DNA from: Gammaproteobacteria bacterium | Lineage (GTDB): Bacteria > Pseudomonadota > Gammaproteobacteria > SURF-13 | Length of the DNA: 53,296 bases | Reading direction: 5' to 3' | Assembly (NCBI GenBank): GCA_016195665.1 | Contig: JACPZD010000002.1 | Coordinates: forward strand, 1-53,296 | Shown here: positions 4,516-42,835 of the stretch, piece after piece | Layout of the letters: each line of letters starts with the position of its first letter | Numbering within the stretch: position 1 is the stretch's first letter | The notes under the pieces: model-generated | Databases searched by the model: none | The model's input: the letters and a program-made list of their open reading frames with translations, nothing else | What the model was told of the DNA's origin: nothing | Made by a program: the position numbers and the translations under genes

Positions 4516-4616
4516 GACGTACAGGGACGTACTAATGTCGGTCGCTCCCGGCATCTTGCCTCCCATGCCGTACAGGGATGTGCCAATGTCGCGGGAGGCA
4601 AGATGCCGGGAGCGAC
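4516..4616. repeat. Dispersed repeat family E, inverted double copy in the lapA leader
   Basis: Contains ACAGGGACGTACTAATGTCG followed by a perfect 24-bp inverted repeat (4541-4564 and 4593-4616; arms start GTCGCTCCCGGCATC). The right half, GGGAGGCAAGATGCCGGGAG, is the same module that occurs in the cupin gene at 42373-42423. As RNA this forms a very stable hairpin immediately upstream of the lapA ribosome-binding site. Confidence 0.85.
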
Positions 4617-4657
4617 ACTGCACAGGATAAGCCTAATAGCGAGGTTGAATCAATCAT

Positions 4658-4719
4658 TACCGGAGCCGTCGCTCCTGCACATCCATGCGCCCGCGACATT
4701 AGTACGTCCCTGTACGTCA
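4658..4719. repeat. Dispersed repeat family E, inverted single copy
   Basis: On the minus strand this reads TGACGTACAGGGACGTACTA, ATGTCGCGGGCGC, then a CATGGATGTGCAGGAGCGAC module that relates it to the repeat upstream of ihfB. It ends directly at the ihfB terminator T-run. Confidence 0.8.
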
Positions 4720-5095: not shown

Positions 5096-5292
5096 TCTCT
5101 GTTTATACAGAGATTCCTGCGGTACACGGATGTGCCGCCATTTTTCAAATACGTACGTATTTGAAAAATGAAGAAAGGCAAAAACCACGTTTTCGCTTTT
5201 TGCCGGGCAGGAAGCCCCAATGCCGCGGGCGCAGGGATGCGCAGGAGCGGCCGTCTCTGAAAATTCCATGGATGGAATTATTCAGAGTTTCC
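5096..5292. repeat. Compound dispersed repeat family D, copy 1
   Basis: A chain of short palindromes: CTCTGTTTATACAGAG, then GGTACACGGATGTGCC, then CATTTTTCAAATAC/GTATTTGAAAAATG, AGAAAGGCAAAAACCACG, a GGGCGCAGGGATGCGC block, and TCCATGGATGGA inside a CTCTGAAAA...TTATTCAGAG pair. The same modules in the same order, on the other strand, occupy 40714-40860. No gene is seen in the 5064-5304 gap. Confidence 0.8.
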
Positions 5293-42271: not shown

Positions 42272-42835
42272 ATGCGATACGCTTTTCCCCATAGCACAAT
42301 CCTCATACTCGTCTTGCTGAGCACGCCTCTGTACGCTGAAGAGAAGAAGACCGGCCCTTCTCAAGCAAATCTTGACGTACAGGGACGTACTAATGTCGCG
42401 GGAGGCAGGATGCCGGGAGCGACCGCCAAACACGCCATCCAATTCACGCCAGCCGACTTCAAGTGGGTGGACGCCCCGCGCTCGATGCCGGCTGGGACGA
42501 GAATTCAAGTTTTGGAGGGTAACCCCACCCGCGCGGGCCTATTCACCATGCGCGTGAAGCTGCCCGCGCAAACCACGCTCATGCCGCACTCGCATCCAGA
42601 AGATGAACGGGTCACGGTGCTCTCGGGCGGGGCATATGTTGGCTTCGGAAACAAAGTCGACCTGGCCAAAGCCAAGCAGTTCGCGACGGGCAGCTACTAC
42701 GTCAACCCCGCCAGGCTGCATCATTACGCCTACTTCGGTGAAGAGACGGTAATACAACTGACAGGAACGGGGCCGTGGGAGATTCATTATCTGAAAGCTC
42801 CGGAACCACCGAAAAAGAAGAAACGAGCGAATTAG
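42272..42835 (+). CDS. Secreted cupin-domain protein with an in-frame repeat insertion
   Basis: 187 residues. Signal peptide (about 1-22, TILILVLLSTPLYA, cleavage near YAEE), a linker, then a single cupin domain (about 70-165): FTMRVKLPAQTTLMPHSHPE supplies two metal His, DERVTVLSGGAYVGFG and YYVNPARLHHYAYF the rest. A Lys/Pro-rich tail follows. Residues 35-51 (DVQGRTNVAGGRMPGAT) are the translation of a 51-bp dispersed repeat inserted in frame between signal peptide and cupin fold, where it should be tolerated. Likely a periplasmic small-molecule-binding cupin; substrate unknown. Confidence 0.88.
   Translation: MRYAFPHSTILILVLLSTPLYAEEKKTGPSQANLDVQGRTNVAGGRMPGATAKHAIQFTPADFKWVDAPRSMPAGTRIQVLEGNPTRAGLFTMRVKLPAQTTLMPHSHPEDERVTVLSGGAYVGFGNKVDLAKAKQFATGSYYVNPARLHHYAYFGEETVIQLTGTGPWEIHYLKAPEPPKKKKRAN
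42373..42423 (+). repeat. Dispersed repeat family E inside the cupin gene
   Basis: 51 bases, TGACGTACAGGGACGTACTA then ATGTCGCGGGAGGCAGGATG then CCGGGAGCGAC. Same sequence modules as at 4516-4616 and 4658-4719. Its length is a multiple of three and it contains no stop in the gene's frame. Confidence 0.9.

Follow-up and report, generated by a model that had tools for sequence, protein, structure and literature searches.

A 51-bp repeat lying in frame within a gammaproteobacterial cupin gene is probably a short mobile element that also adds residues to unrelated proteins

A 51-bp repeat unit lies within a cupin gene in the gene's own frame, where it contributes 17 added codons reading DVQGRTNVAGGRMPGAT. 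These extra codons are best explained as a short, non-autonomous mobile element of the REP/RPE kind that was copied in recently, a reading that we hold to be very probably correct. The host genome (2.38 Mb, 99.4% complete) carries about 70-76 copies, many of them within unrelated protein genes, and the evidence for frame-neutral insertion is unusually clear.

Introduction

Rickettsia palindromic elements (RPEs), of about 150 bp, were reported from obligate intracellular Rickettsia (Ogata 2000, 2002, via PMC10969869 and PMC3733652). In the text of Di Nocera et al. 2013 (PMC3733652), intragenic GTAG and CGTC REPs are described from several free-living species, Thioalkalivibrio (in uvrA) and Opitutus terrae included; they are often found in repair genes, and two copies in a single gene were also seen.

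The preliminary description of the window (the whole stretch of 53,296 nt of DNA that was analysed) had proposed that a dispersed repeat is inserted in frame between the signal peptide and the fold of a cupin, and that no such case had been described for this family. Here, we report the distribution, structure and insertion behaviour of this repeat, and compare it with the known systems.

Results

The cupin gene and the copies in the window

The unit in the cupin gene has the sequence T followed by GACGTACAGGGACGTACTAATGTCGCGGGAGGCAGGATGCCGGGAGCGAC (42373-42423), and the gene product combines a signal-peptide-like leader with a Pfam ChrR-like cupin (Table 1). Both the open reading frame and the Pfam domain are intact. 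The proposal of an in-frame repeat adding 17 residues between the signal peptide and the cupin fold is confirmed. Rfam gave no family match at this copy. The AlphaFold model of the cupin alone had a mean pLDDT of 46, too poor for use, with the insert in the least confident stretch.

Table 1. Coordinates of the cupin gene, its insert and the related copies in the window
Feature	Position	Strand	Basis or remark
Cupin gene, 187 aa, host of the insert	42272..42835	+	ORF; Pfam Cupin_7 1e-09, residues 58-169; homologues in 14 other genomes
Signal peptide MRYAFPHSTILILVLLSTPLYA	42272..42337	+	Read from the translation; homologues have a hydrophobic leader in the same relative place
51-bp mobile repeat unit (probable), residues 35-51 = DVQGRTNVAGGRMPGAT	42373..42423	+	Boundaries from an exact 51-bp nested insertion
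Hairpin A, Y-GAC-GTAC-AGGGAC-GTAC-TAR	42373..42393	+	First base T covaries with A at 42393
Hairpin B, GTCGC-GGGA-GGCA-GGA-TGCC-GGGA-GCGAC	42395..42423	+	
Cupin domain, intact downstream of the insert	42443..42778	+	Pfam match
5' half (hairpin A) of the repeat, intergenic	4516..4539	+	
Full but diverged 51-bp unit, intergenic	4566..4616	+	5 mismatches
Inverted hairpin B half	4541..4569	-	Adjoins the unit at 4566-4616, giving a long inverted repeat
52-bp variant with another 3' hairpin, intergenic	4668..4719	-	
Related 3' hairpin joined to another 5' part	5219..5251	+	Between ihfB and rpsA

The 26-mer and 24-mer halves of the repeat each have 3-4 matches in the window and none in shuffled sequence. 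The spacers at 4516-4616 and 4658-4719 had been said to hold further copies; both halves of the repeat do recur at 4516-4719, but rearranged, as a 5' half, an inverted B'-A-B arrangement (4541-4616) with one full unit inside, and a 52-bp variant, rather than as simple copies. At this cluster, Rfam returned nothing but sub-threshold microRNA chance matches. The hairpins at 4668-4719 and 5219-5251 are related to the repeat but have a different 3' or 5' half; they lie on either side of ihfB and upstream of rpsA.

Distribution of the element

The 21-base core of the unit, searched with up to three mismatches, matched the host genome 76 times and a 46-base stretch of the unit matched it 69 times, compared with none for the reversed control. 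The five other genomes of the same family contain 5-22 copies each; outside the family, a single copy was seen in each of two out of 50 genomes of the class. A degenerate-pattern search extended the range to about 34 assemblies, almost all of them gammaproteobacterial, with carriers including Thiohalophilus thiocyanatoxydans, Methylomicrobium sp. wino1, Methylomonas, 'Candidatus Muproteobacteria' and Neptuniibacter marinus; in other species, too, it is found in frame within genes. Phages, plasmids and viral contigs were considered as carriers and rejected: the element had no match in viral contigs, and a tblastn search of its peptide against phage and plasmid collections found nothing. The copies of Methylomonas, Neptuniibacter and Methylomicrobium (L109, L129, L136) lie in genes resembling that of a type I restriction methyltransferase (hsdM), an often transferred gene and a possible vehicle of the element between lineages.

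Structure of the unit and the insertion event

The boundaries of the unit come from a Ca-ATPase gene that carries the element in both SURF_13 (L126) and the host genome, the latter with a second copy nested in the first. In the before/after alignment, exactly 51 bp have been gained, the boundaries are unique and the target is not duplicated; the unit therefore consists of Y plus 50 bases, or 17 codons, and, its length being a multiple of three, any insertion keeps the reading frame. Two adjacent hairpins make up the unit with one base between them: the stem of hairpin A has 4 bp, that of hairpin B has 5+4 bp with an internal loop, and the ends of the unit (YGAC and GCGAC) are not inverted repeats. 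A target preference for C after the insertion and C-Y upstream (C-Y-N-N | C) is suspected.

Across 145 distinct copies, the stems are kept via compensatory changes. Hairpin B is preceded by TAAT or TAGT (TART), and the strongest covariation links the third base of this tetranucleotide to the first base of the unit (T-A in 79 copies, C-G in 50, other pairs in 16); we put 13 of these 16 exceptions, all beginning with G, down to misregistered 69-bp copies. The fit of the -2 base to guide pairing is weak.

A nested composite, with one unit placed identically within another, recurs at five loci (C5:12499-12601, C5:19619-19722, C11:53402-53476, C39:7401-7520 and C22:77190) and may itself be mobile. 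A similar nested insertion, DVQGSTNV[...]TGDRM, is found in 'Candidatus Muproteobacteria' (L120, L128), in other species and other genes. Two further sites hold the element in different genomes. At one site in valS (L137, L252), SURF_13 has the 51-bp form and the host genome a 69-bp form; their 5' parts differ by exactly 18 bp, and a rare base in the 3' hairpin is common to both. At one site in the oligopeptidase A gene (L002, L153), the elements of two genera agree at 49 of 50 bases between flanks that are 70-82% identical; this points to conversion, to one target having been hit repeatedly, or to constraint on the sequence.

The genome encodes nine Y1_Tnp genes, and neither an A nor a B module was found near any of them; RAYT genes flanked by the element were accordingly rejected (0 of the 9 Y1_Tnp loci). 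A relative with 11 copies (G005) has no Y1_Tnp match, and the presence of Y1_Tnp across the relatives does not track that of the element. That no dedicated transposase emerged from these nine loci would suit a spread of the copies chiefly via homologous recombination or gene conversion, as would the near-identity at the oligopeptidase A site and the two size forms in valS. We nevertheless consider such a spread unlikely, since precise insertion at a new site, with neither flanking homology nor duplication, requires a cut-and-join activity, and conversion is limited to homogenising copies that already exist.

In-frame copies in coding sequence

The preliminary description had called for a genome-wide search for other in-frame copies, and at least 28 others were found within genes. 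In a census covering 264 kb of sequence around the copies, 28 of the 67 full-length copies lie in frame within coding sequence according to a codon-usage test applied to both flanks; this is a minimum, as the test is strict and misses the cupin and dapB copies. The unit is free of stop codons in four of its six reading directions, and all 28 intragenic copies are in these open readings (P about 1e-5 against 4/6), leaving the two stop-bearing frames empty. The dominant readings are DVQGRTNVAGGRMPGAT in sense and VAPGILPPATLVRPCTS in antisense, and 23 of the 28 copies use two of the four open phases, a preference possibly due to selection acting on the peptide or to the suspected target preference described above. 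One candidate for a stop-frame intragenic copy (C22:55981) was discarded because it is intergenic: its own TGA terminates the upstream gene, and an iscR-like gene follows directly.

The host genes, named from Pfam, solved-structure matches or sequence, include those for enolase, iPGM, PFK, DapB, QueC, a Mur ligase family protein, a PBP1b-type enzyme, NAD(P)H-hydrate dehydratase, RecG, PriA, UvrA, a UvrD-like helicase (next to a PD-(D/E)XK nuclease), an Orn/DAP/Arg decarboxylase, a cation ATPase, and PcnB and oligopeptidase A with two copies each. An ORF of 1565 residues (C36:106907-108717) with CheA-type-kinase-like flanks holds at least five units; both the 51-bp and the 69-bp form and both orientations occur there, every copy being in frame. 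The rare 69-bp variant (23 codons) is also found in frame within genes, for example valS and lnt-like genes. The 52-bp variant, which has a 30-nt 3' hairpin, appears confined to spacers: none of its 12 usable copies is in coding sequence (P about 0.002-0.003, or 0.06 if they are counted as five independent contexts).

Selection of the inserts for a benefit to the protein beyond mere tolerance, as a new linker, through regulation or through a mutator effect, would be in line with the concentration of 23 copies in two phases and with the many repair and helicase hosts (recG, priA, uvrA and the UvrD-like helicase), which recall the situation described for REPs in PMC3733652. The hosts are, however, otherwise functionally unrelated, the insertion sites mostly differ between species, and the phase bias could be explained by the target preference for C after the insertion together with third-position GC, all of which makes such a benefit improbable in our view. 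It is still harder to believe that the repeat is removed or skipped during expression, as a bypassing or excised element would be: it can fold into RNA hairpins, but for such an element neither open frames nor divisibility by three would matter, yet every one of the intragenic copies is in an open frame and the 52-bp variant is found outside genes.

There is about an even chance, in our judgement, that the lengths of the element (51 and 69 bp) and its open frames have been selected, so that it colonises coding DNA across many gammaproteobacterial lineages while frame-breaking variants are kept outside genes.

The insert as extra sequence in the host proteins

Orthologues of gpmI, recG, pfk, queC and dapB in the five sister genomes lack exactly 17 codons, except for one gpmI orthologue (G005) that is shorter by 21 codons, not 17. 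The enolase orthologues of the sister genomes are about 16-21 residues shorter, within a variable loop. Because these six genes, enolase included, are each present in a single copy in the host genome, the working enzymes presumably contain the insert. It is also absent from PDB homologues of six proteins: the alignments leave gaps of exactly 17 residues in RecG (9wm0) and in oligopeptidase A (4ka8), where HExxH follows immediately, and DapB, iPGM, QueC and enolase have extra residues at the insert site relative to solved structures. The aligned sequences thus suggest proteins that appear to have gained a 17-residue stretch missing from their relatives.

The same holds for the cupin. The preliminary description had proposed to look for the 17 residues in orthologous cupins, whose general possession of them would have marked the residues as ancestral; the homologues in 14 other genomes show no trace of the peptide. 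For nine homologues the leader start could be located, and in these the distance from the start Met to a conserved W is 38-51 residues, compared with 65 here, or 48 without the insert. The linker between signal peptide and cupin is variable, and the alignment of the homologues is loose there. Even with this looseness, an ancestral origin of the 17 residues, with a chance or secondary resemblance to the spacers, is next to impossible and is refuted by the sister-genome and cupin-homologue comparisons, given that the peptide occurs in no homologue, that its DNA shares identity with dozens of unrelated loci, and that the same peptide is present in unrelated proteins whose orthologues lack it.

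Discussion

The claim that no such case had been described holds for the sequence family, of which no report was found in the literature as far as it was searched, but not for the phenomenon, known from RPEs and from intragenic REPs (PMC3733652); the family is apparently undescribed and its kind already published. Like RPEs, as they are described, the element occurs both in spacers and in frame in unrelated genes, apparently adds a peptide and seems tolerated rather than destructive. By the same descriptions, which are the sole basis of this comparison, it differs from RPEs (~150 bp) in its size of 51 or 69 bp, in its mostly uncultured gammaproteobacterial hosts, and in having an exact before/after site without target duplication.

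The likeness to the intragenic REPs, as presented in the text of PMC3733652, extends to the location within ORFs, the repair genes among the hosts and the occurrence of two copies in one gene. This family is not recognisable in that text, consensus figures excluded. Unlike GTAG REPs, the element has TART rather than GTAG before the palindrome, and it flanks no transposase. The CGTC REP is described in the same text as having a CGTC end, a stem of 8-9 bp starting with AT, a loop of 4-5 nt and a CCA tail; the reverse strand of the element does end in ACGTC, but stem, loop and tail depart from this description: the stems are of 4 bp and of 5+4 bp with an internal loop, and there is no CCA tail. 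With REPINs and the REP-RAYT system (PMC3116915, PMC8266576), it has in common imperfect hairpins, a high copy number and a covariation, resembling that of a guide, between the presumed cut base and the tetranucleotide that precedes a palindrome; REPINs are, however, extragenic as described there, whereas the element consists of two different tandem hairpins, has an in-frame length and is linked to no RAYT.

A MITE was rejected, since terminal inverted repeats and a target site duplication are both absent. As the GTAG tag, a flanking RAYT, the CGTC hairpin and the MITE features are all lacking, we file the element outside GTAG REPs, CGTC REPs and MITEs. The ends of IS200/IS605 elements resemble it in their hairpins and the lack of target duplication, and perhaps in a cut site complementary to the tetranucleotide that precedes a hairpin. 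The left cut site of an IS200/IS605 element remains in the flank; here, the pyrimidine is within the inserted unit in the nested case, so that it apparently belongs to the unit itself, and there is no tnpA neighbour.

We propose that the element would move as folded single-stranded DNA, cut and joined in trans by a REP/IS200-IS605-type Y1 HUH transposase, with the TART before hairpin B probably guiding which base is recognised at the 5' cut. In vitro, the Marinomonas REP transposase cuts at CC instead of CT once the third base of GTAG is replaced by G (GTGG; PMC8266576), and the covariation between positions -1 and 19 of the element follows this same pairing rule. This covariation supports mobilisation by a Y1 HUH transposase, short of proof, and could instead be part of the stem of hairpin A. 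Once inserted, copies would persist within protein genes, single-copy metabolic and repair genes included, reading as 17 or 23 added residues; the peptide would be translated and probably tolerated as a flexible linker or surface loop, with selection presumably removing copies in stop frames or in harmful places.

RPEs are selfish DNA that adds new stretches to protein genes, but their hosts do not lend themselves to manipulation; the present element does the same at high frequency in apparently free-living bacteria. Since several of its host proteins have solved homologues (enolase, DapB, iPGM, RecG, QueC and PFK) and traces of the element are found in culturable species (Thiohalophilus, Methylomicrobium and Neptuniibacter), both the tolerance of the insert and the transposase are directly testable. 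Annotation and structure prediction are affected as well, because such inserts pass for ordinary protein sequence. Should the frame-neutral lengths and open frames indeed have been shaped by selection, repeated cassettes of 17 or 23 residues would have been added to core proteins in many gammaproteobacterial lineages.
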